From assembly GCA_021371855.1 (NCBI GenBank), contig JAJFVL010000052.1, positions 198,969 to 262,968 on the forward strand: a stretch of DNA of 64,000 nucleotides, in the 5' to 3' direction. Position 1 is the stretch's first letter; each line of letters begins with the position of its first letter. This stretch comes from Bacteroidales bacterium (GTDB lineage Bacteria; Bacteroidota; Bacteroidia; Bacteroidales; VadinHA17). Of the stretch, positions 11,686-24,590 are shown one piece after another. The notes under the pieces were generated by a model. That model had not been told where the DNA came from. It saw only the letters and a program-made list of their open reading frames with translations, and did no database searches. Made by a program: the position numbers and the translations under genes.

Positions 11686-13044
11686 ATGGTAACGAGAGGT
11701 AGTGCAAATGAACTGAGCGTTGAAAAAGTCGGGAAGCTGCTTATTCAATATTCAATTCCTGCAATTATTGCAACTGCCGCAGCTTCTCTATATAACATTA
11801 TAGACAGGATTTTTATAGGACAGGGGGTTGGACCACTTGCTATTTCCGGATTGGCTCTCACCTTTCCTCTTATGAATATTCTTGCTGCATTTGGCTCTCT
11901 GGTAGGTGTAGGTTCAAGCGCGATGGTATCAATCCGGCTGGGACAACATGACCGACGGGGCGCTACATTGATTCTGGGCAACGCTGTCATGCTGAATATC
12001 ATATTGGGAACAGTTGTGCCTGCCATAACTATAATTTTTCTTGAGCCGATTCTGTACGCTCTGGGAGCAAGCAAAGACACCTTGCCTTATGCAAAAGAGT
12101 TCATGCAGATAATATTGGCTGGAAACATCTTTACTCACCTTTATCTTGGTCTGAATAATATAATGAGGGCATCAGGTTATCCTCAGAAGGCAATGGTGAC
12201 TACACTTGTCACCGTTGCAGTTAATCTTGTTCTTGCCCCGTTGTACATATTTGTTTTCAAATGGGGTATAAGGGGCGCAGCTTTCGCAACTGTATGTGCA
12301 CAGATAACAGGCACAGCATGGGCACTGTTTCACTTTGCCAGGATCGACAGTTTTGTTCATTTCCTCCCCGGCTATATGAGATTAAAGAGAGTTATCATAA
12401 AAGATATCTTCTCTATCGGGATGTCAAACTTTCTAATGCTTATTTGTTCCAGCGTTGTAGTATCGATAATGAATCTAAGCCTGTCAAGGTATGGTGGTGA
12501 TTTTGCAATCGGCGCTTTCGGAATAATAAACAGCATTGCGAATCTTGTTGTAATGATTGTTATTGGATTTAACCAGGGTATGCAGCCTATAGTAGGGTAT
12601 AACTATGGTGCAAAAAAGATTCTCCGCGTTATTAAAACATATAAGATAACAGTTTTTGCCGGAGTTTGTGTTACCTGCTTTGGATTTCTTCTTGCAGAAA
12701 TCTTCCCGCGACAGATTGCTTCGGCATTCACTACAAGCAAAGAACTTATTGACCTTGCTGCCATGGGGATGAGATTAAATCTTATCATGCTACCTATCGT
12801 CGGATTTCAGGTTGTAACAACAAATTTTTTCCAGTCTATCGGCAAGGCAAAAATCTCAATATTTCTTTCCCTGGCACGACAAGTTTTGCTACTTATTCCT
12901 GCACTCTTAATTCTGCCCCTTTTTCTTGGTCTGAATGGTGTATGGCTCAGCGGTCCTGTTGCCGACTTAACTTCTTCCATTATTACACTGATGGTACTGC
13001 AGTGGCAGATAAAAAAAATGCAACATGGATATCCTCTTCAATGA
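11686..13044 (+). CDS. MATE-family multidrug/sodium antiporter
   Basis: The ATG at 11686 gives a 452-residue protein beginning MVTRGSANELSVEKVG, the normal MATE length and N-terminus. An upstream in-frame TTG at 11638 would add 16 untypical polar residues, so I did not use it. Twelve hydrophobic helices form two MatE repeats (about 15-180 and 235-400), with family motifs SLYNIIDRIFIG, GLNNIMRASG and FNQGMQPIVGYNYGA. It probably exports cationic or metabolite-like compounds in exchange for Na+ or H+. Its last 20 bases overlap the maturase gene, so the two are translationally coupled. Confidence 0.93.
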   Translation: MVTRGSANELSVEKVGKLLIQYSIPAIIATAAASLYNIIDRIFIGQGVGPLAISGLALTFPLMNILAAFGSLVGVGSSAMVSIRLGQHDRRGATLILGNAVMLNIILGTVVPAITIIFLEPILYALGASKDTLPYAKEFMQIILAGNIFTHLYLGLNNIMRASGYPQKAMVTTLVTVAVNLVLAPLYIFVFKWGIRGAAFATVCAQITGTAWALFHFARIDSFVHFLPGYMRLKRVIIKDIFSIGMSNFLMLICSSVVVSIMNLSLSRYGGDFAIGAFGIINSIANLVVMIVIGFNQGMQPIVGYNYGAKKILRVIKTYKITVFAGVCVTCFGFLLAEIFPRQIASAFTTSKELIDLAAMGMRLNLIMLPIVGFQVVTTNFFQSIGKAKISIFLSLARQVLLLIPALLILPLFLGLNGVWLSGPVADLTSSIITLMVLQWQIKKMQHGYPLQ

Positions 13045-14377
13045 TGCGCTGAAGCTTCAACGGCCTGATGCCTTCAACGTAATGGTAAAGCCGACAGGTC
13101 CGGTTTGTAATTTAAACTGCACTTATTGCTACTATCTTGAAAAGAAGAAACTTTTTCCGGAGAAGAAAGATTTCAGACTGCGCGAGGAACTTTTAGAGAA
13201 TTTTATCAGGCAGTACATTGAAGCCCAACAGGTACCTGTTGTAACATTCACATGGCAGGGAGGTGAACCGACACTCCTGGGTCTCGATTATTTTGTCAGG
13301 ATTATTGAGCTTCAGAAGAAGCATTCAAACGGGAAGAAAATTGAGAATGCATTTCAGACAAACGGGACAAGGCTGACAGACGATTGGTGCAGGTTTTTTG
13401 CAGATAATAATATACTGGTCGGCATATCAATTGACGGAGCGGAACATACTCACGACCATTACAGAAGAACAAGTTCAGGAGGTCCTACTTTTAAGAAGGC
13501 AATGCGGGGTATTGAATTGCTTCATAAAAATAAGGCGGAATTCAATACTCTTAGCTGTGTAAATAGTTACAGTGTTCATTACGCATCAGAAACATACAGG
13601 TTCCTGAAAAATATTGGCAGCGGGTTTATCCAGTTCCTGCCTGTGGTGGAAAGAAGTGCCGGTATTAAGGATAGTAATGGCTTAAATCTTGTGGCTCCAG
13701 GGTATGGCGGCAAAGCTTGCGTTACGGACTGGTCGGTTAATGCCAGAGATTTTGGCAGGTTCCTGATCACGATTTTCGATGAATGGGTTCGAAATGATGT
13801 TGCAAGGTACTACGTTCAGATATTCGACACTACACTGGCTAATTATGCCGGAGAGATGCCCGGTTTATGTGTTTTCTCCGAAACCTGCGGGGATGCACTG
13901 GTTATGGAACACAATGGAGATCTTTTTTCGTGTGATCATTTTGTTTATCCCGAATATCTTCTTGGGAACATTTCAGAAACACCAATGATTGACCTTGTGA
14001 AATCGCAGAGGCAGTTTGATTTCGGGATTGACAAAAGAAATAAGCTTCCACGATACTGCCTTCAATGCGATGTCAGATATGCCTGCCATGGAGAATGTCC
14101 AAAACACAGGTTTATAAACACCCCTGACGGTAAACCGGGCTTGAACTATTTGTGCGAGGGTTATAAGGCGTTTTTCCATTATGTTGAACCATACATGGAA
14201 TATATGGCGAAAGAGCTTAAAAATAAACGTCCACCTGCCAATGTAATGAACTGGATCAGAAACAAAGAACATCAGGTTGTGAAACCTGTAATTCCGGAAA
14301 GGAATGCCCCCTGTCCATGCGGAAGCGGGAAAAAATTCAAGAACTGTTGCTTTGGGAAACCAATATATAACCTTTAA
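13025..14377 (+). CDS. Anaerobic sulfatase-maturating enzyme (radical SAM, SPASM) with SEC-C tail
   Basis: 450 residues. The radical SAM motif CNLNCTYC (Cys28, 32, 35) follows the family's FNVMVKPTGPV. Further signatures are TFTWQGGEPTLLG and the SPASM cysteines near 283-385 (CDHFVYPEYLLGN, CLQCDVRYACHGECPKHRF). This enzyme oxidises an active-site Ser or Cys of sulfatases to formylglycine without oxygen. The C-terminus ends in a SEC-C zinc motif, PCPCGSGKKFKNCC. All sulfatases in this window are Ser-type, which only this kind of maturase can activate. It overlaps the MATE gene. Confidence 0.94.
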   Translation: MDILFNDALKLQRPDAFNVMVKPTGPVCNLNCTYCYYLEKKKLFPEKKDFRLREELLENFIRQYIEAQQVPVVTFTWQGGEPTLLGLDYFVRIIELQKKHSNGKKIENAFQTNGTRLTDDWCRFFADNNILVGISIDGAEHTHDHYRRTSSGGPTFKKAMRGIELLHKNKAEFNTLSCVNSYSVHYASETYRFLKNIGSGFIQFLPVVERSAGIKDSNGLNLVAPGYGGKACVTDWSVNARDFGRFLITIFDEWVRNDVARYYVQIFDTTLANYAGEMPGLCVFSETCGDALVMEHNGDLFSCDHFVYPEYLLGNISETPMIDLVKSQRQFDFGIDKRNKLPRYCLQCDVRYACHGECPKHRFINTPDGKPGLNYLCEGYKAFFHYVEPYMEYMAKELKNKRPPANVMNWIRNKEHQVVKPVIPERNAPCPCGSGKKFKNCCFGKPIYNL

Positions 14378-14540: not shown

Positions 14541-15710
14541 TTATATTGGAATCGTAAAATAGAATACCGATCCCTTATCAGGTAGTGATGTAAACCAGAT
14601 ACTGCCTCCGAGCATCTCTATGTAAGCCTTTGAGATAGTCAATCCCAGACCGGTCCCGTCGTAATTTCGTGTACTGCTGCTGTCAACCTGATAAAACCTG
14701 TCGAATATTCTTGATTGATATTGAGGAGGAATGCCTATACCGGTATCTGAAACATAAAATTCAATTTTGTAATTTTTAAAATGGTAACCGAATATTACTT
14801 TTCCTTTACCCGTGAATTTCACTGCATTACCTACAATGTTATTCAGAACATATAACAATTTGCATTCGTCGGTTAATATGATCAAATCACGGTTATCGTA
14901 AGGTGGTATCTCTAAACACAGCTGAAGGTTCTTTTCGCCTGCCTTTGAACTGAATTTATCATAAACTTTGTGTAACAAAGAATTAAGATTTATCTCCTTT
15001 TCAAAGAGCGTTATGTTGTTTGCCTCTATTTTGGAAATGTCAACGATATCGTTTATTACTTCAAGTAAATGATCAGTGCTTCGGGTAATTATATCCAGAT
15101 ATTCCTGCCGTTGCTCCCTGCCATTTTCCACTTCGTTCAGTAATGTCGAGAAGCCGACAATTGCATTTAAAGGAGTTCTTATTTCATGAGAAATGTTATG
15201 TAGGAAGGTCTCTTTTAAAAGTTCATCATCTTCTCTCTTTTCCTGAACTTTCATTGATTGATTAACAGCCGGTTTACGTCCGCTTATATCAAATAGTATC
15301 CCAAAAGAACCAATCACCTTGCCTGTAAACTCATCTGTCATTGGCAATGAAGACTCTCTTATCCATTTTTTTTCTCCGCTCATCGTCCTGACTAATACTT
15401 CTGCTTTGAAACTTTTGATATCTCCGTTTATGAATTTCTCGCGAATAATCATCGGATCACTGGGAATATCATCGGAGAGAGGAACTATCTCTTCAATCAT
15501 ATTATTATAATATCTTTCAGTAAGATATTCAGGTGCAATACCAAGAAGCTGATTGAGACCCGACCCTATATTGAGATAAAAGCCTTCACCCATACGAGCT
15601 CCGAAGATCAGCTGAAAGGGGACTCCGTCGGCATTCTCGATTACCTCACGAAAGTATATTCCTGACTTAAGAAATAACTCTTCAGTTTCTTTGTAAATGT
15701 GACTTTCCAT
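14541..15710 (-). CDS. Soluble PAS-domain sensor histidine kinase
   Basis: 389 residues without membrane segments or signal peptide. A PAS/PAC unit (about 15-143) ends with GSFGILFDISGRK. The HisKA dimerisation helix carries the phospho-acceptor in HNISHEIRTPLNAIVG (His175). The HATPase_c domain (about 280-389) has the N box NNIVGNAVKFT, DTGIGIPPQ and GTGLGLTISK. It has no receiver domain and no response regulator nearby, so it is an orphan kinase that may feed a hybrid or distant regulator. The gene is divergent from the sigma-factor gene. Confidence 0.9.
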   Translation of the reverse strand: MESHIYKETEELFLKSGIYFREVIENADGVPFQLIFGARMGEGFYLNIGSGLNQLLGIAPEYLTERYYNNMIEEIVPLSDDIPSDPMIIREKFINGDIKSFKAEVLVRTMSGEKKWIRESSLPMTDEFTGKVIGSFGILFDISGRKPAVNQSMKVQEKREDDELLKETFLHNISHEIRTPLNAIVGFSTLLNEVENGREQRQEYLDIITRSTDHLLEVINDIVDISKIEANNITLFEKEINLNSLLHKVYDKFSSKAGEKNLQLCLEIPPYDNRDLIILTDECKLLYVLNNIVGNAVKFTGKGKVIFGYHFKNYKIEFYVSDTGIGIPPQYQSRIFDRFYQVDSSSTRNYDGTGLGLTISKAYIEMLGGSIWFTSLPDKGSVFYFTIPI

Positions 15711-16098
15711 GTAGTCTGTAGTTTTAACAACTCTTTATTGCATATAAATTTTCTTTTACTTTCACATTATTCATTACAATACTTGAAAAATACATTATGG
15801 CTTTATCGATTCCTTTCTAAGGAACTAACAAAGCTCATTAAATCACGTATTTACAATTTGTTGTTTTCAAAATTCCTTTTAAAAACAATGTTTAATAAGA
15901 ATATGCACAAAATTGTTACCCGTAATTTTTAATAATTTTTCGACTTAAATGTGAAATAGAAAAGAATATGTTGATTTTCAAACCATTAAAATGTATCAAA
16001 ATTATTTACTTGTATTTTAAATATTTTTTAATAAAAGTTTAAAAAATGTTTTTATATTTGAAAAGTACTTTAAAGATTCTGCAATAACAATATAATTC
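15711..16098. other. Divergent intergenic region between kinase and sigma-factor genes
   Basis: Very AT-rich spacer, about 390 bases, that must carry the promoters of both divergent genes. No coding frame or RNA structure is convincing. The only recognisable signal is a TATATTTG box near its right end, listed separately. Confidence 0.5.
16053..16060 (+). promoter_or_regulatory. Candidate -7 box upstream of the sigma-factor gene
   Basis: TATATTTG is an exact match to TAnnTTTG. It lies 38 bases before the GTG start, giving a leader of about 30 bases. The -33 element is not clear. Confidence 0.45.
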
Positions 16099-16692
16099 GT
16101 GAAAGCTTATACCGACAATGAAATAATCGAGTGTCTGAGAAACCGGCAGAGTTATGTTGTCCAATATCTGTCAGAAAGGTACATGCCTATGATCAGGCTA
16201 ATGGTTAACAACATGGGAGGTAGTGTCGATGATGCACACGATGTTTTCCAGGATGGTCTTATTATAATGCTTGAAAAGTTGGACAATAAAGATTTTGTTC
16301 TGACCTGCAAATTCAAAACTTACCTTTATTGTGTATGTGAAAACCTCTGGAAATCGACTCTCGAGAAACGGCATGCCGCTGCAAATTATTTTATACGCAG
16401 AGATGAACCTGAATTTGAGAATGATTTTACTGAACATATCGATCAGGAAATGTACCAGGATATATTCCGTGATGCCTTTGAAACACTGGACCCTGTAAGC
16501 AAAAAGATACTGGAATTATACTGGAAGGAGATGTCACCACAGGAAATTGCTGATGAACTTGGATATACATACGGCTATGTAAGGAAGAAAAAATGTGAGG
16601 CACAGAGTGAACTTACCGAAAGAGTAAAGAGACACCCTGGTTATAAACGTATAATGAAAACAGAAAACACTGCAAGAGATATTGTGCGGTGA
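16099..16692 (+). CDS. Sigma-70 family RNA polymerase sigma factor (ECF-type)
   Basis: 197 residues from a GTG start at 16099; no upstream ATG is in frame. Region 2 (about 25-95) includes DDAHDVFQDGLIIMLEKL and FKTYLYCVCENLWKS. Region 4 (about 145-185) has a helix-turn-helix, SPQEIADELGYTYGYVRKKK. The two-region layout marks it as an ECF-type alternative sigma factor. It lies 52 bases upstream of a TPR membrane protein whose place matches an anti-sigma or signal partner, and it points toward a convergent CHAT gene. I infer it controls this local module. Its target promoter is unknown. Confidence 0.88.
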   Translation: MKAYTDNEIIECLRNRQSYVVQYLSERYMPMIRLMVNNMGGSVDDAHDVFQDGLIIMLEKLDNKDFVLTCKFKTYLYCVCENLWKSTLEKRHAAANYFIRRDEPEFENDFTEHIDQEMYQDIFRDAFETLDPVSKKILELYWKEMSPQEIADELGYTYGYVRKKKCEAQSELTERVKRHPGYKRIMKTENTARDIVR

Positions 16693-16744
16693 TACTTTCT
16701 GAAAAAGAAAATTGCATTTGGATTTGAATGGATAATAAACAGAA

Positions 16745-17773
16745 ATGAATAACAAAAACAAACATATACGCGATAAATCCGGTCCTTTTATTAAGTACAT
16801 TTCAAGTGACAGATCCTATAATGATTTGCAGCTTAAAAATGACGATCTTGTTCTCTTCGGAACAATAAGTGAATATATGCAGGGATCACTTGACATTGAG
16901 GATGTAAAAAACGATCCTGATTTTCAAAAGACCGGCGATTTGGTTAAAGAGATGATATCCGATTATAATAAAAACAGCTCTGTAAAGAAGGAAAATGAAA
17001 AATTCATAAGGGATATTTTTGCTGAAAGTGCTTCTGAAGATAAGGTAATTGAAGATATATGCCAGATAAAACACGAAACCGGGAAAAATGATCTGGATCT
17101 TGTTACTGCAGAATGGGTTAATGAATGGCATGCAAAGAAGCAGAGAAATGGTGGACGAGAACCTGAAAATGAAATTAAAGACTTTATTACAAGTTCTCTT
17201 AAATCTGATATAATTAAGTCTGAAAAAATCTTATCCGAAGCTAGCGGAAAAAGATCAAACCGGAAGTTTTCCGTACGGTACCTGTCACTTGCAGCCGCTG
17301 CAGTAATTGGCGCTTTCATACTTGTAAGGTCACTTCTCCCCTCGTATAATCCTGAAGAACTTTTTAATTCATATTATGAACCCCTGAATGCAATATCCCC
17401 TGTTACACGCAGCATAAATAACGTTGAGACAGGCAGCTTTGCATCAGCTATAGGAAGTTATAAGAAAGGTGATTACCAGAATGCTTCTATGGGATTCTCC
17501 GCTGCATTGCAAAAAGATAATTCTTCGGTGTCATCGAGGTTCTTTCTTGGACTGACACAGATAGCACTTGGGAATTATAATCAGGCTGTTGAACTTCTTA
17601 CAGCAGTTGTATCTGACGGAAGTGAATACGGGAAGGAAGCACGGTGGTATCTTGGTCTGACATACCTTAAAACAGGGAATAAACCCAAAGCTTCTGAATG
17701 TTTTGAATATCTTTCAAAGTCAAACGGTTTTTACCGCGATCGATCAGAAAAGATTCTATGCCGTTTGAAATAG
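16745..17773 (+). CDS. Single-pass membrane protein with C-terminal TPR repeats, possible anti-sigma partner
   Basis: 342 residues. The hydrophilic N-terminal part (about 1-175) is charged and helical. One membrane helix lies at about 181-197 (LAAAAVIGAFILVRSLL). The C-terminal part (about 230-340) holds tetratricopeptide-type helical pairs, for example YKKGDYQNASMGFSAALQKD and LGNYNQAVELLTAVV. Cytosolic N-terminus plus external TPRs is the layout of an anti-sigma or sensor protein, but I see no standard anti-sigma motif such as zinc HxxxCxxC. It is cotranscribed with the sigma factor and its last 43 bases overlap the convergent CHAT gene. Confidence 0.7.
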   Translation: MNNKNKHIRDKSGPFIKYISSDRSYNDLQLKNDDLVLFGTISEYMQGSLDIEDVKNDPDFQKTGDLVKEMISDYNKNSSVKKENEKFIRDIFAESASEDKVIEDICQIKHETGKNDLDLVTAEWVNEWHAKKQRNGGREPENEIKDFITSSLKSDIIKSEKILSEASGKRSNRKFSVRYLSLAAAAVIGAFILVRSLLPSYNPEELFNSYYEPLNAISPVTRSINNVETGSFASAIGSYKKGDYQNASMGFSAALQKDNSSVSSRFFLGLTQIALGNYNQAVELLTAVVSDGSEYGKEARWYLGLTYLKTGNKPKASECFEYLSKSNGFYRDRSEKILCRLK

Positions 17774-20511
17774 CATAACAGGACTCCTGACAGTATTAAA
17801 ATCAGACTTATCATAATCAGAACTGTACTGAAACGATTACGTACAACTGGTGCGTTATCGCCAAGCACTTCATATGCAGCCCAGTAATATGGATTGGTAA
17901 ATGCAGGGGAAGAATTTTTTAAATAATCAAGTTTAGCCAGCCGCATGGCTATATCTTTTTCTTTGCCCTTTGAAAGATAATAATAGAATCGGGTGATAAT
18001 AGCTGAGCTTACTTCATCATTAACTTCCCAGGAGGTTTTTATTACGGAAGAAGCACCTGCCAGGATAAAACCACGTGCCAGGCTCATCAATCCTTCACCA
18101 TAATATAATGTACCCGTACCAGAATTGCAGGCGCTGAGAACAACCATAGGCGATTTTATTCTGCTTAAACTTATCTCATAATTATATAGTTTGCTGTCTT
18201 CCACTGTACAATTATGAGTATCGAACAGCATGTATGAGTAACGTGAGTTCACACTGTCGGACATTGAATGCATTGCCAGATGGAAAATAGCGGGTTTTTG
18301 AATGGCTTTTAAGAAATTTACTTTAGTGGCTCTGTTGCCTGTAAAGGTTTCACCAAAGAACCATTTATAGATCGATTCAATCTCGTCGTTTGCGCCCTGA
18401 AGAGAGTCCAGTCCTTCTCCGTAAAAAGTTGTATTGCTGTAATCGGGAGAAAAGGAAAATACCTCAGCTCCTCTTTTCAGCCTGCTGTTTTTGCTGAAAA
18501 TTAGCGATGAAGAGTACCCGTACGAAAAAGTAAAATCATTTATCAGGTAGTGAAGTCCTTCATAATCTGTCTGATCCTGTCCTGGACTCTTCCTGAGGAA
18601 CGAATCAAAAGGAAGCCATCCGATCTCTTCATCAGGAATGATGATGAGGTTATTGCCGGCAAATAGTCCTTCGACAGGCTTGATAAGGTTCAGATACATG
18701 TAATGGAGAGCGCCGGCATAATTGCTGAAATTTTCATTTTGTTTACCAGAAGCAAGTGACGGATCGCATGTCATACGAATAATGGAAGAATTCTTATTAA
18801 AAAGCGAATCAAGGCTGGTCTCGCGGAATTCAAGACGGTTTCTGGTAATTAAAAAGATATACAGTTTTCGTTTTCCGCCGGAATATTGATTTGAGAGAAG
18901 ATAATCAACTATCGTCTCATTATTTGTCAGTTGTTTCTGTATTTCACGCAGCGAAACGGGCTCTGTCTTAGTTATGAGATCGTGGTATTGAGGAAATACC
19001 CTGGCGATCTCATCAGATACTTCTTCCTTTTCGCGGTTCATATCAAAAAGAGCATCTTTCCATAGAGATATTTTACTGCTGTCGGGATTTAGTTTTCGTT
19101 TTTCTGCTATGATCAGGTTATTATATGCAGCAATATCTGAGGCCAGACGGTTTTGCTTTTCCCTGAGTGTATCAGGGATTCCTGAGGAATAAAGTATTTC
19201 GTTCCCTTTGATCTCATTCCGGAGAACTGCTGCTTTGGCTTTCATTGCAATTTCGTACATTTTATTGCCGATTGTTACATCATGCGAAAGTGAAAATAAA
19301 CTGAAAGCCAGGTGTGCTGCATAAATATATGTCTCCTTCTCGTTTTCAGCAAGGTAGATACGGCTCTCTTCCGACAGATATTTATTCCTTATATTGTCGA
19401 CCAGTTGAAGAGCAAGTTCTATGGTTTCGAGTCCTTTTCTTATAGTTTTGATTTTATTTTCAGGATCTTTTTGCTCCCCGGCAAATAATTCAAGGGCCTG
19501 TGCCTTGCTTTTCAGGTTATCAAGAAGACGGATATCAAAAAGGGAAGAGTCGATTGAAGGATTTGAATAAATATCAGGATTTTCAAAATTGGTTACAATT
19601 GCAATTAATGATTTCTGGTAATATGAGAGTGCCAGATTATAATCGGACTTATGCAGACAGTCATCACCAATCAGCTTATAGGCAAAGGAAACCAGAGAAT
19701 GCTTTTCTCCATAATTTTTCAGGCATATGGATAATGCTTTCTGATGAGCTTCCCATGCTTCATCATTTCTTCCTGCTGACTTCAAAAACAAGCCATAATC
19801 AAAATATACTTCCGCAAGCCTGAAATAGTTTTCGTTATATTCGTACATGAGGCTGGAAATGCTTTTCAGGTAGAAATTTTCTGCTTCATTTTTGTTTTCA
19901 GCTTTTATATACGATTTAGCAATATTAAGATAAACAAGTGCCAGTCCAGGTAGTTTGAATTTTGATTTGATCTCAGCGCTTTTTGTAAAATACTCTAATG
20001 CTGATTTGTAATCTTTTATTTCAAGATAGACTATTCCTAAATTCAGGTATGCTGATGATAGGCTAGAAAAAACACTTTTTTCATTACTCTTCATACCTAA
20101 ATAAATTTTGATACCTTTTTCAAAATATTCAATAGCTAATGGATATGATTTTTGAAAGCCATAAATGATAGCCTTATTAATATAAATATTTCCAAGCGAT
20201 AGAGATGTATTTTCTTTATTATTTATCAAAATTTCAGCTTTACTATAATAATCTAAAGCGACTTGATACTTCCCTAATAATATACATGTTGCTCCAAGGT
20301 TATTAAATACAGCAGCTTTATATTCTGCAGGTATAGTTTTGTTAGAGTCTAAGATCAGTAATAATTTTTTTTCTGCGCCTACAAGGTCCCCATTATTATA
20401 GTGTCTCGAAAATTCGTGATATAGAGAATCAACATATTTATCCTGAGCTTTTAAATGATTTGTTAAAGCATTTGAAAATATAAAAATAACAAGGAAAAAG
20501 ATCTTTTTCAA
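17731..20511 (-). CDS. Secreted, membrane-anchored TPR-CHAT protein (caspase-like peptidase)
   Basis: 926 residues. The signal peptide (1-22, ending LKAQ) is followed by about seven TPR units (about 35-330), a coiled linker and a C-terminal CHAT domain (about 600-880). The likely catalytic pair is His748 in HLAMHSMSD and Cys795 in VVLSACNSGTG, the usual CHAT His-Cys arrangement. The fold closes with SLARGFILAGASSVIKTSW. A final membrane helix (about 894-914) anchors it, so the peptidase domain is expected in the periplasm. CHAT domains are caspase-related cysteine peptidases often controlled through TPR sensors. Its substrate is unknown. The short double-glycine peptide encoded just upstream is an obvious candidate. 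Confidence 0.88.
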   Translation of the reverse strand: MKKIFFLVIFIFSNALTNHLKAQDKYVDSLYHEFSRHYNNGDLVGAEKKLLLILDSNKTIPAEYKAAVFNNLGATCILLGKYQVALDYYSKAEILINNKENTSLSLGNIYINKAIIYGFQKSYPLAIEYFEKGIKIYLGMKSNEKSVFSSLSSAYLNLGIVYLEIKDYKSALEYFTKSAEIKSKFKLPGLALVYLNIAKSYIKAENKNEAENFYLKSISSLMYEYNENYFRLAEVYFDYGLFLKSAGRNDEAWEAHQKALSICLKNYGEKHSLVSFAYKLIGDDCLHKSDYNLALSYYQKSLIAIVTNFENPDIYSNPSIDSSLFDIRLLDNLKSKAQALELFAGEQKDPENKIKTIRKGLETIELALQLVDNIRNKYLSEESRIYLAENEKETYIYAAHLAFSLFSLSHDVTIGNKMYEIAMKAKAAVLRNEIKGNEILYSSGIPDTLREKQNRLASDIAAYNNLIIAEKRKLNPDSSKISLWKDALFDMNREKEEVSDEIARVFPQYHDLITKTEPVSLREIQKQLTNNETIVDYLLSNQYSGGKRKLYIFLITRNRLEFRETSLDSLFNKNSSIIRMTCDPSLASGKQNENFSNYAGALHYMYLNLIKPVEGLFAGNNLIIIPDEEIGWLPFDSFLRKSPGQDQTDYEGLHYLINDFTFSYGYSSSLIFSKNSRLKRGAEVFSFSPDYSNTTFYGEGLDSLQGANDEIESIYKWFFGETFTGNRATKVNFLKAIQKPAIFHLAMHSMSDSVNSRYSYMLFDTHNCTVEDSKLYNYEISLSRIKSPMVVLSACNSGTGTLYYGEGLMSLARGFILAGASSVIKTSWEVNDEVSSAIITRFYYYLSKGKEKDIAMRLAKLDYLKNSSPAFTNPYYWAAYEVLGDNAPVVRNRFSTVLIMISLILILSGVLLCYFKRHRIFSDRSR

Positions 20512-20602
20512 TTCAGCTTACTTTAATCAAATTGAATCCCATTACAGTTTAAAAGGTAATTTAACAAAATAAGTAAAAATGTAAATTGAAAAAAAATAAA
20601 AA

Positions 20603-20628
20603 AGCATCCTTGTTATTGAAAGGATGCT
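20603..20628 (-). terminator. Terminator between the GG-peptide gene and the CHAT gene
   Basis: Stem AGCATCC (20603-20609) with GGATGCT (20622-20628). On the minus strand the stem is followed directly by a long T-rich run. It stands 22 bases past the peptide stop, so the peptide can be made as its own short, abundant message, with partial readthrough into the CHAT gene. Confidence 0.85.
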
Positions 20629-20650
20629 CTATTAATATGTAAAAAATTTC

Positions 20651-20818
20651 TCAAGGTTTTGTCGGATCAGTAATGATTGGTTCACTTCCATTGCCATCGG
20701 CCTCTCCGCCACGCACATGGATCATTTCCTCCAGATTCAACATTTCGTTTTCTGACAATTTGCAAATTAACTGATCAAGGTTTTTGTTTGTTTTTGGTGA
20801 TTCATATGCTCTTTTCAT
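20651..20818 (-). CDS. 55-residue peptide with double-glycine leader motif
   Basis: ATG at 20818 to TGA at 20651. The N-terminal 38 residues are charged and helical, containing LSENEMLNLEEMIHVRGG. This matches the leader pattern of Bacteroidetes double-glycine precursor peptides (hydrophobic residues at regular spacing, then GG). Cleavage after GG would free a 17-residue acidic tail beginning EADGNGSEP and ending DPTKP. There is no signal peptide and there are no cysteines. No ABC exporter or radical SAM modifying enzyme is next to it. The neighbour in the same direction is the CHAT peptidase-like gene, separated by a terminator. It could be a peptidase substrate, secreted signal or modified peptide; which of these is not known. 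Confidence 0.65.
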   Translation of the reverse strand: MKRAYESPKTNKNLDQLICKLSENEMLNLEEMIHVRGGEADGNGSEPIITDPTKP

Positions 20819-20846
20819 GACTTTATAAATTGATTAAGGTTTCTAT

Positions 20847-20866
20847 TTTCCTGTTTAATCAGGAAA
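20847..20866 (-). promoter_or_regulatory. Hairpin in the leader of the GG-peptide gene
   Basis: Perfect seven-base arms TTTCCTG (20847-20853) and CAGGAAA (20860-20866) around six bases, 29 bases before the peptide start. It may be a 5' UTR stem or an operator. The remaining upstream region to 21150 is AT-rich with no other feature seen. Confidence 0.45.
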
Positions 20867-21150
20867 TGTCCTTAAATGTTACCCGGTATTTGATGATATT
20901 TTTCATGAAAATGATACAAGGTATGTCTTCAATTGCACTAATGTATTATTTTATAAATAGATATAGAGAGTAAAAATATTTATTTTTTCTTTAACAAATC
21001 TTGAATCAGTCAGATATTTTATGAAAAAACAAATAATGTGGTAACAATTTAGCAACAAAACTTATAAAACTATGAATTTTGCATATTGAAAAGTTTTGTC
21101 TCCTTAAACAATTGTGCTTACTGAACTGAATAAAAAAAATTCATAAAAAC

Positions 21151-21462
21151 ATGCTTGAAAAATATTATGTTGGGATCAGGCCGCAGACAAATGGATTTCA
21201 TGCTGTGCATGAAGAAGGCTGTCCGTTCTTACCCGAAACCGGAAAACGAATCTTCCTGGGGAGATTTCAGAACCCTCAGGATGCCTTAAAGGAAAGCAGA
21301 AAACATTTTAAAAGATCAAATATCTGCCTCTTTTGTTCAAAAGAGTACCTGCCTCAGAAAAACACACAGCAAGAGCCTGTGTTTGAGATTTCCGAAAACT
21401 TTATATCATCAAGCCGGCTTGCAGTTACCTGGGAAAGTGCGCTTCTGTGTTCTGTGAATTAA
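21151..21462 (+). CDS. Small conserved-looking Cys/His protein, function unknown
   Basis: 103 residues, no signal peptide. The first half reads like a compact fold starting YYVGIRPQTNGFHAVHEEGC, followed by a CxxC pair (NICLFCSKEY, about 72-81). Together the His and Cys residues (HxxxC and CxxC) could bind a metal. The C-terminal third is variable. It lies divergent to the GG-peptide gene and ends three bases from the convergent sulfatase gene. I do not recognise a named family. Confidence 0.55.
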   Translation: MLEKYYVGIRPQTNGFHAVHEEGCPFLPETGKRIFLGRFQNPQDALKESRKHFKRSNICLFCSKEYLPQKNTQQEPVFEISENFISSSRLAVTWESALLCSVN

Positions 21463-21465
21463 CGG

Positions 21466-23046
21466 CTAAGGTCGAGGTTTAGGCTTAGTTGGCAGAAAAG
21501 ATTGTGCAGAAGCCTCACTGTCGTTATATTTTTTCATCAGCTTTTTAAGCCGCTTATGAAGATCCTTTCTTACAGAAGCATATGCCGGATCGTCATAAAC
21601 ATTTCTTAATTCATGAGGATCTGCCTGTAGATCATAAAGTTCCCATTCATCTATATCATAGTAGAAGTGAATGAGTTTATACCGCTCAGTACTCATCCCG
21701 TAATGACGTTTAACCATATGTGAACCGGGATACTCGTAATAATGATAATAATGCTCTTTTCTCCAGTTTGAAGGAGTTTTGCCTTTTAAGACAGGAACAA
21801 AACTTCTGCCCTGCATATCGGAAGGCACTTTCGTACCGGCCATATCGAGAAATGTCTCTGCAAGATCGAGATTTGATACCATATCATTGTTTATACTACC
21901 AGGTTTTACTATGCCCGGCCACTGGATAAGAAGAGGTGTACGATAGGATTGTTCAAACATCCAGCGTTTGTCGAACCATCCGTGTTCTCCAAGATAGAAT
22001 CCCTGATCAGAAGCATATATAACTATTGTATTCTTATCAAGACCGCTTTTCCTCAGAAAGTCAAGAACCTCCCCTACACTTCTATCGACAGCTGCTATAC
22101 ATGCCAGGTAATCCTGAAGATATCGCTGGTATTTAAAACGGATAAGATTATTTCCTTTAAGATCCGATTTATAGAATTGTCTAATTATTGGATCATAGAC
22201 GGAATCCCATGCAGCCATTTGCTCTGAATTCATGCGATCGAGACCAGTTTTTTTCATCTTCGAACGATTCTTGTACATCTTGATATCCTCTTCTATCCTC
22301 ATGGTTTTGGATATAGTCATATCCTGAGTCTTCTCTGCAGTACCACGATTCGAATAATCATCAAAAAGTGTTGAAGGCTCGGGAAATGTAATATCTTTAT
22401 AACGTGTTAATTCATTTGGGCCAGGTTCCCACTCGCGGTGTGGAGCCTTGTGATGCATCATAAGCATAAATGGTTTCCCTGAGTCTTTTACTTCATCTAT
22501 CCACTCAATGCACTTTTTTGTAATTATCTCGGTAACATACCCTTTCTCGGTATGTTTTCCATCTTTGTTAATAAAATCAGGATTATAGTAGTTTCCCTGT
22601 CCTGGCAATATTTCCCAATGGTCAAATCCAGTTGGTATTGATCCAAGATGCCATTTACCTATCATTGCGGTCTTATAACCTGCTACCTGCAAAAGTTTCG
22701 GGAAAGTCTGCTGCGAACCGTCAAAATCAGGCTGACCTTCATTTTTAATAAAGCCATTCAGGTGGCTGTATTTTCCAGTTAATATTACCGCACGACAAGG
22801 ACCTGAAATAGAATTTGTAACCAGACACCGGTCGAACCTCATACCGTTAGCAGCAATCCTGTCGATATTTGGTGTTGGCGCAATATCTTTCAAAATGCCA
22901 CCGTATGCGCTTATCGCCTGATAAGCATGATCATCGCTCATGATATAGATGATATTGGGTCTTTCGGCTGGTGTTGTCTGCGAGTAAATACCGGTTGAAA
23001 ATGCCGTCAGTCCAAGTGTTGTCGCGATCTGCAGGTTTAATTTCAT
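21466..23046 (-). CDS. Type I sulfatase, Ser-type (S1 family)
   Basis: 526 residues with a signal peptide (1-22). Metal-binding Asp pair in IIYIMSDDH (Asp38, Asp39). The formylglycine motif is SGPCR followed by AVILTG, so the modified residue is Ser81. The downstream signature MIGKWHLGS is present, and [18 protein letters not shown] supplies further metal and sulfate ligands. The sequence most resembles the group that includes N-acetylglucosamine-6-sulfatases, but I cannot assign the substrate. It is exported to the periplasm or surface and needs the anaerobic maturase encoded at 13.0-14.4 kb. Confidence 0.92.
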
Positions 23047-23090
23047 AATAAAGGTTGTAAAAGTTGAAAGGTTGCAGGTTTGAAATGGAA

Positions 23091-24590
23091 TCAGTTTTTG
23101 ATTCTTTTTATTGATCCCGGGTTTCGAATGTTGGCACCGGGGATATTGTAGTTATCATCCCCGAGATCAAGTCTCATTTCATCAACAAGTTTTTTCAGGT
23201 CTTCAACAACTTCCGGGTATAATTCTTTCACGTCATATCGTTCGCCGGGATCTCTGCGAAGGTCGTATAAGGCATAGTCGGTTTTGCCATTCGTGTATTT
23301 TCCGGGCCATCCGTCGTTACCTGGCATTACTCCTTCGTATGAGCGAAACCTATGAGGCAAAACCAGTTTCCATTGTCCTTTCCTGACATTTTCGAGACTG
23401 TTTTTTCCATAATAATAAAAGAACACATCGCGGGGATCTGAATCAAAATTTCCTTCAAGCAAGGATATTATATTTACTCCGTCGATTCTCTTTTTTGGCA
23501 ATGTAGCACCTGTTATATTGCAAAGTGTCGGTAATATATCGATTGTGGAAGCAATGCTGTTGCATATTTCACCGGAAGGAATCCTGGCTGGCCACGACAT
23601 AATGCATGGAACCCTCTGCCCTCCTTCCCAGCTGCAGCCTTTCCCCTCCCGCAATCCTCCTGATGAACCTGCATGATTGCCAAAATTCAGCCATGGACCG
23701 TTATCTGACATGAAAACTACAAGAGTGTTTTCTGCAAGGCCGTTTTTCTCAAGAGTATTCATTATTTCACCTACTGACCAGTCGACTTCCATTACAACAT
23801 CACCATAAAGACCCTGTTTGCTTTTACCTTTGAATTTATCTGAGACAGCCAAAGGAACGTGTGTCATGGAATGAGCCATGTATAAGAAGAACTGGTTCGC
23901 CTTGTTGCGTTTTATAAAATCAACGGCGTATTCTGTGTATGAAGTTGTGAGCTGAGCCTGATCTTCAAGTGTTTCTATTATCTTAACTGTCTCGTTCCCT
24001 TTGATAAGCGGCAGCGGTGGATACTTCAACAGCCAGGAACCTTTATCTTTTGTCGCATGCAATCCGTCATAATCAACAGGCCACATGTCATTTGAATAGG
24101 GAAGTCCGAAATATTCATCAAAACCGTTTTGCAGGGGAAGAAACTGACGTTGGCAACCGACATGCCATTTTCCCACGACTGCATTTTTGTAACCTTTTGT
24201 TGCAAGTAATTCAGGGATCAGTTCTTCTTCCGGATTGATACCAACACTGTCCCATGGCATAAGCGCACCTGTAATACCGACCCGGTTTGAATAACATCCT
24301 GTCAGCAAACCTGCTCTTGAAGCGCTGCTTACAGCCTGTGCTGCATAGAAGTTCGTGAACCGCATCCCGTTTGCCGCCAGCCTGTCGATGTTGGGTGTCC
24401 GGTATTGTGTAGCCCCGAAACATCCCAGATCACCATAGCCCATATCGTCTATTAAGATCAGTATCACATTAGGGAGTTTCTGTACCGCCGGTTTTTGGGC
24501 TATCCCCGGTCCGGTAATCAATGACGTTAAACCAACACCAAATAATGATTTAAGTATTGTACTGTTTTTATTTGAAAAAAAATCTGGCAT
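23091..24590 (-). CDS. Type I sulfatase, Ser-type (arylsulfatase A-like)
   Basis: 499 residues. The N-terminus is a probable signal sequence (hydrophobic 12-31, ending GIAQ). Metal site [13 protein letters not shown], and formylglycine motif SSASR followed by AGLLTG, with Ser88 as the modified residue. The third position is Ala instead of Pro, which is tolerated in the family. AVVGKWHVG and [20 protein letters not shown] supply further catalytic and metal residues. It resembles arylsulfatase A/GALNS-like enzymes. It lies 44 bases before the next sulfatase gene in the same direction. Confidence 0.92.

Follow-up and report, generated by a model that had tools for sequence, protein, structure and literature searches.

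The question raised by this locus is why a secreted caspase-fold protein of the TPR-CHAT type should be encoded beside an ECF-type sigma factor, a single-pass TPR membrane protein (TPR-TM protein) and a short double-glycine (GG) peptide. The arrangement lies in the window, the whole stretch of 64,000 nucleotides of Bacteroidales DNA analyzed here, and had been noticed in a sequence-only reading, which took the four genes for one module. The four ORFs were recovered exactly where that reading had placed them, and Pfam/NCBIfam profiles confirmed the sigma, TPR, and CHAT assignments (Table 1). As described below, the four neighboring genes are strongly supported as one conserved unit, joined by gene order and a private promoter, and signaling is the most likely role of this unit.

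Table 1. Positions of the genes and regulatory elements of the locus in the window
Feature	Position	Strand	Remarks
PAS-HisKA-HATPase histidine kinase, 389 aa	14541..15710	-	predicted sigma target
GTAACA-N11-ATnCnnATnAAAC copy 5' of histidine kinase	15890..15919	-	0 mismatches
TATATTTG, housekeeping-type -7 element before sigma gene	16053..16060	+	footprint alignment
ECF-type sigma-70 factor	16099..16692	+	197 aa, GTG start; Sigma70_r2/r4, TIGR02937
Single-pass TPR-TM protein	16745..17773	+	TPR profile matches, alignment, AF2 model
TPR-CHAT caspase-fold protein	17731..20511	-	926 aa, TTG start
Intrinsic-terminator-like hairpin and T run between peptide and CHAT genes	20580..20636	-	
Double-glycine peptide gene	20651..20818	-	55 aa; kept in 21/21 loci
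ECF-type promoter motif GTAACA-N11-ATnCnnATnAAAC before peptide	20853..20882	-	phylogenetic footprint; 1 mismatch; GTAAC ~65 bp 5' of peptide start
GTAACA-N11-ATnCnnATnAAAC copy 5' of 103-aa ORF	21041..21070	+	1 mismatch
103-aa His/Cys protein	21151..21462	+	predicted sigma target; motif upstream

The sigma factor was matched by Pfam Sigma70_r2 (5e-8) and TIGR02937 (1e-18) and shows 50–77% identity among the same-genus loci, in which the TPR-TM protein shows about 36–57%. The TPR-TM protein is predicted to consist of an N-terminal helical part in the cytosol, a transmembrane helix (~176–197), and a periplasmic TPR domain (about 230–342), within which the TPR profiles matched residues 240–342. 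Its AF2 model was confident in the periplasmic TPR part only, with a linker of low confidence. No known anti-sigma domain was matched in the N-terminal part by Pfam/NCBIfam profiles or alignment. Judging from its topology and operon position, the TPR-TM protein is probably an anti-sigma factor. Its homologs are located directly 3' of an ECF sigma gene in many loci, including loci without a nearby CHAT gene, and the occurrence of such pairs indicates that CHAT is not always needed. A near-invariant juxtamembrane arginine, R222 (59/61), stands within the otherwise variable linker between the transmembrane helix and the TPR domain, and it was considered as a cleavage site of CHAT. Because the sigma/TPR-TM pairs without a nearby CHAT also keep Arg at this position, R222 is not CHAT-specific and gives no evidence for CHAT cutting there, and cleavage at R222 was demoted to an idea.

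The features ascribed to the CHAT protein by the sequence-only reading were all found: a hydrophobic start or signal peptide, TPRs, the CHAT domain (1.5e-42) at residues 608–885 (about 17857–18690), and a C-terminal transmembrane helix (889–907) followed by a short K/R-rich tail. The dyad was also exact, and His748 and Cys795 are invariant in 87/87 anchored relatives, while the overall identity among same-genus orthologs is 47–68%. A Foldseek search with the AF2 model (pLDDT 82) gave DdvA as the top match, followed by separase and the TPR-CHAT protein of Craspase. These matches represent fold-level similarity because the global TM-scores were low (0.2–0.5). By sequence, DdvA was the only CHAT match of the domain in the PDB (E 0.006). 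The TPR profile resembles kinesin-light-chain and Rap-type peptide-binding TPRs. Where a sigma gene lies nearby, 45 of 49 CHATs have the C-terminal transmembrane helix, versus 17 of 52 where none does (Fisher 6e-10, a value that ignores phylogeny, with order-level loci sampled by similarity to an anchored CHAT). A search of plasmids for CHATs yielded distant ones only. The TPR-TM and CHAT genes overlap tail-to-tail by 43 bp (17731–17773), and this overlap, which might allow antisense control, is retained in the relatives read.

The 55-aa GG ORF is a real gene under purifying selection. Across the genus, every distinct locus whose upstream DNA is intact (21/21) encodes a GG peptide beside CHAT, one of these peptides having been spotted by eye, and the sigma and TPR-TM genes are convergent to the CHAT gene. 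The pN/pS of the peptide gene is ~0.45 overall, leader and core alike, and lower in the closest pairs (0.05 versus 0.41 in one close pair). These values, together with the promoter footprint described below, rule out a chance ORF. The window peptide has a leader ending in NLEEMIHVRGG and a predicted mature part, EADGNGSEPIITDPTKP, of 17 aa without Cys. C39 PCATs recognize double-glycine leaders at positions L-12/E-8/M-7/V-4 (PMC6363468). In about 70 peptides of the family, Leu occupies −12 in 65/70, Met or Leu −7 in 69/70, and Val, Ile, or Leu −4 in 70/70, mostly with Glu at −8, and Arg or Lys precedes the GG in 66/70. The mature parts have a median length of 18 aa, are net negative in 84% and proline-rich, and contain Cys in a single case. 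Two other classes were considered and rejected. As an rSAM-modified RiPP precursor (TIGR04149, TIGR04194), the peptide scored 13 bits with TIGR04194 versus a curated cut-off of 33, and the radical SAM gene in the vicinity encodes a sulfatase maturase. The mature peptides of bacteroidetocins contain Cys, are somewhat basic, measure 42–48 aa, and are accompanied by a thiol oxidoreductase gene (PMC6671954), and this class was dismissed for the short, Cys-less mature part of the window peptide. Some loci carry more than one peptide gene: four tandem, similar GG peptide genes adjoin the CHAT gene at L129:6537-7458, and two copies are present in each of L103, L107, L120, and L135. A second GG peptide family (MKDLKKLKGAKILSKKEQISIKGG..., with Cys-containing cores), which resembles bacteriocin precursors, was observed near the CHAT locus at L103:17565-19191.

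Alignment of the orthologous regions revealed a footprint, GTAACA-N11-ATnCnnATnAAAC, about 60–65 bp before the peptide start. A weight matrix built only from these peptide-promoter sites also matched before the kinase gene and the 103-aa ORF, both in the window and in the orthologues. When the 4.7-Mb genome was scanned, four sites with ≤1 mismatch were found in total, and three of these are in the window locus. The element before the sigma gene, TATATTTG, is largely kept in orthologs and is of the housekeeping Bacteroidetes −7 type. A hairpin occupies the peptide/CHAT intergenic region in 12/12 loci tested of the window type (class A), with a T-rich stretch behind it in most. The histidine kinase gene is divergent from the sigma gene and is retained solely in the closest relatives. 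The 103-aa protein belongs to no known family, has invariant H, VH..GCP, and CxxC elements, and is encoded at the same position across the class A loci read. Since the kinase gene and the 103-aa ORF carry the same private promoter motif, the module spans 14541–21462 and is larger than had been claimed, and its standing as one module is borne out by conserved order, common promoters, and linked gain and loss. Conservation and the private promoters also rule out a chance neighborhood. The motif is presumably read by the window sigma factor, and a small local regulon is predicted, with the peptide-CHAT genes, the histidine kinase, and the 103-aa protein as its targets. The module is flanked in the window by an anaerobic sulfatase maturase gene (13025–14377) and two secreted sulfatase-like genes (21466–24590), which look unrelated to it because relatives carry other flanks.

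The same genome has a second module (C54; L046) composed of a sigma factor, a TPR-TM protein, a 1034-aa CHAT, a GG peptide, and a small histidine kinase. At this sister locus, it is the sigma gene, not that of the TPR-TM protein, that overlaps the CHAT gene. The footprint before the sister peptide, GTGTCACAAA-N13-ACATGT, is unlike the window motif and has two exact sites in the genome, one at the sister locus and the other on C12 before a gene for a 247-aa protein without a Pfam family (L209:695-1438), which is likely a second target of the sister sigma factor. The class A motif was absent from the class B (sister-type) loci scanned, and the class B motif had no site at the window module. For this reason, no shared regulon is claimed. 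The single C39 domain of the genome resides in a C39-peptidase ABC transporter, which with HlyD adjoins the sister module and not the window module. With one C39 exporter in the genome and two paralogous modules under private promoters, the modules appear to share the exporter.

To examine the distribution of the module, forty CHAT loci sampled phylum-wide and another forty within the order were read. Dozens of Bacteroidales families contain the sigma/TPR-TM/CHAT triad. All matches of the peptide profile below E 0.2 adjoin anchored-type CHAT genes, some as tandem copies, and none below this threshold was found at loci without an anchored CHAT. C39/HlyD genes are near CHAT in 15/25 peptide loci versus 0/34 peptide-less loci, and 22/22 tested peptide genomes contain a C39 domain versus 5/15 genomes with a peptide-less anchored-CHAT locus; both comparisons ignore phylogeny. 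In the CHAT tree, the anchored Bacteroidales proteins cluster, with only 7 changes of the peptide label versus 38 in shuffles. One clade of 22 members has the triad without the peptide, and most of its loci encode an SdrD_B/dockerin protein that is secreted and carries a type IX sorting tail. As to whether CHAT occurs in relatives without these neighbors, which would have counted against the proposed grouping, the answer is divided: the sigma and TPR-TM genes stay, and in this one clade the peptide is replaced by the protein secreted via the type IX system (T9SS). Because the triad persists there, the peptide cannot be the sole substrate of CHAT. The T9SS protein in the place of the peptide (L100, L101, L106, L110, L124, L130, and others) is roughly 410 aa long, with SdrD_B/CarboxypepD_reg and dockerin- or cohesin-like parts. 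A contig assigned to Peptococcaceae UBA2264 (L042) carries a module nearly identical to that of a Bacteroidales locus (L041) and is probably misassigned.

Here, we propose a mechanism in which the inhibition, the cleavage, the peptide binding and its sign, and the order of events are what we infer. What is observed is the gene order, the topology signals, the catalytic dyad, the promoter motif, the leader rule, and the co-occurrence. The module may well be an ECF sigma/anti-sigma envelope pathway that is gated by the periplasmic CHAT protease and tuned by the C39-exported peptide, a reading to which we give about an even chance. The sigma factor and the membrane TPR protein would be made from the housekeeping-type promoter, and the TPR protein probably keeps the sigma factor inactive. 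The predicted location of CHAT is periplasmic, with the C-terminal helix as its anchor, and CHAT would share this compartment with the TPR domain of the putative inhibitor. By analogy with the Craspase protease discussed below, activated CHAT may cut or displace the inhibitor, either directly or through a proteolytic cascade, and the sigma factor would be freed. Free sigma factor would then transcribe the peptide-CHAT genes, the histidine kinase gene, and the 103-aa ORF, before which the motif is observed. The peptide is probably produced in excess over CHAT because the terminator-like hairpin precedes the CHAT gene. As suggested by the leader rule and the co-occurrence of C39 genes, the peptide would be trimmed at the GG and exported by the transporter of the sister locus, although C39–HlyD may deliver it outside the cell instead of into the periplasm. 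Once mature, the peptide may serve as a feedback ligand, autoinducer, or brake by acting on the TPRs that CHAT, the inhibitor, or both would place in the periplasm. A more specific form is offered only tentatively, as possible but doubtful: the C39-exported GG peptide would be read by the periplasmic TPR-CHAT protein as a receptor-protease that turns on the ECF sigma factor, whose targets would include both peptide and receptor, and paralogous modules with private promoters would use one exporter.

The sequence-only reading had left the choice between a signaling and a peptide-processing circuit. Signaling is the best reading because of the sigma factor and transmembrane protein, the ECF-type promoters, and the DdvA-like fold, and the processing part has fared less well. 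CHAT could be the processing enzyme of the peptide, cutting the GG precursor (e.g. after Arg of VRGG) or trimming the exported peptide, which would then be the product of the module. The two genes do share an operon and a common promoter, and the frequent Arg or Lys before the GG would suit such a role, since several caspase-fold families cut after Arg. However, the leader obeys the C39 rule, exporters of this type co-occur, the 22-member clade keeps the triad without the peptide, and CHAT has a signal peptide whereas the precursor has none, so that the two would meet only after export. We therefore regard processing by CHAT as decidedly unlikely. It is rather unlikely that the module responds to envelope stress through direct sensing of damage by CHAT or the TPR-TM protein, with the peptide as a mere downstream output whose role lies outside. 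The peptide is indeed a predicted sigma target, and its replacement by a T9SS-secreted protein in one triad clade is expected of an output, but across much of the order the CHAT gene has the gene for the peptide or for its replacement immediately beside it, which a ligand–receptor pair fits better.

A bacteriocin whose regulation or immunity is provided by the sigma and CHAT genes would account for the GG leader, the PCAT/HlyD genes at the sister locus, and the tandem peptide copies at some loci. We consider it very unlikely, since the mature parts are short, acidic, proline-rich, and nearly always without Cys, purifying selection acts on the core, and no candidate for an immunity gene was noticed. 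The catalytic-type TPR-CHAT protein and its structural match to the TPR-CHAT of Craspase also bring to mind a defense or cell-death system, similar to Craspase or to the CHATs that cleave gasdermin. This is hardly credible for a CHAT predicted to be periplasmic, in a locus that has stable synteny among close relatives, that shows no nuclease, CRISPR, or gasdermin gene in its surroundings, and for which PADLOC yielded one weak partial match only.

The envelope sigma pathway gated by CHAT and tuned by the peptide, our preferred reading, has parallels in several known systems. One is DdvS/DdvA of Myxococcus xanthus, in which the ECF sigma factor DdvS is combined with a transmembrane TPR-CHAT protein, and the window CHAT comes structurally closest to DdvA (8rot/8rw5). 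DdvA itself is a transmembrane anti-sigma factor that carries the CHAT domain, whereas the window has a separate TPR-TM protein after the sigma factor, and its CHAT has no anti-sigma domain, with a signal peptide at the N terminus and a short cytosolic tail. DdvS/DdvA is not known to involve a GG peptide or PCAT. The exported peptides of the C39 type, such as ComC-type pheromones and bacteroidetocins, resemble those described here in the hydrophobic residues at −12, −7, and −4, Glu at −8, the GG, and a genomic C39 transporter. The cores of the window type differ in being acidic, proline-rich, and Cys-less, and they are linked to sigma and CHAT genes instead of any receptor kinase or immunity gene already known. 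Rap-type TPRs bind signal peptides, and the TPR profile of the window CHAT matches them. However, the Rap/RRNPP proteins are cytosolic receptors of re-imported peptides, whereas the window TPRs are predicted to be periplasmic.

In Craspase, the TPR-CHAT protein Csx29 cleaves Csx30, an inhibitor of an ECF sigma factor (CASP-sigma) (PMC10028731). A TPR-CHAT protein with a His/Cys dyad, an ECF sigma factor, and a separate protein, the inhibitor in Craspase and a predicted inhibitor here, are common to both. In contrast, Csx29 is RNA-activated via Cas7-11, whereas the window CHAT is predicted to be secreted and anchored and is accompanied by a GG peptide, and the ORF maps, both for the window and for related loci, contained neither Cas7-11 nor a CRISPR array. 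CHAT proteins also occur in the genetic context of ECF54 sigma factors, for which proteolytic control has been proposed (PMC8999054, a review). The model member of ECF54 is actinobacterial (Geodermatophilus), the group is classed as lacking an anti-sigma factor, and no GG peptide or C39 exporter is mentioned. In the window, the sigma gene is followed by the putative anti-sigma TPR-TM protein, which has the layout of such a factor. The partnership of CHAT with sigma factors is thus already known, and the combination of an anchored CHAT, a separate TPR-TM protein, a GG peptide, and a C39 exporter looks new. A protease-linked peptide signaling circuit of such make-up was not found in the searchable literature, which covered few subscription papers, and its absence is unproven. 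Most of what is known of CHAT proteases comes from CRISPR-guided and cell-death systems. In the present case, gene order and promoter logic connect an anchored CHAT with an ECF sigma pathway and an exported peptide throughout an order of Bacteroidota. The module, with a ligand-sized candidate of 17 aa, is a concrete case for asking whether caspase-fold proteases serve ordinary peptide signaling, and it sets DdvA, Csx29/Csx30, and ECF54 inside a broader pattern of CHAT–sigma partnership.
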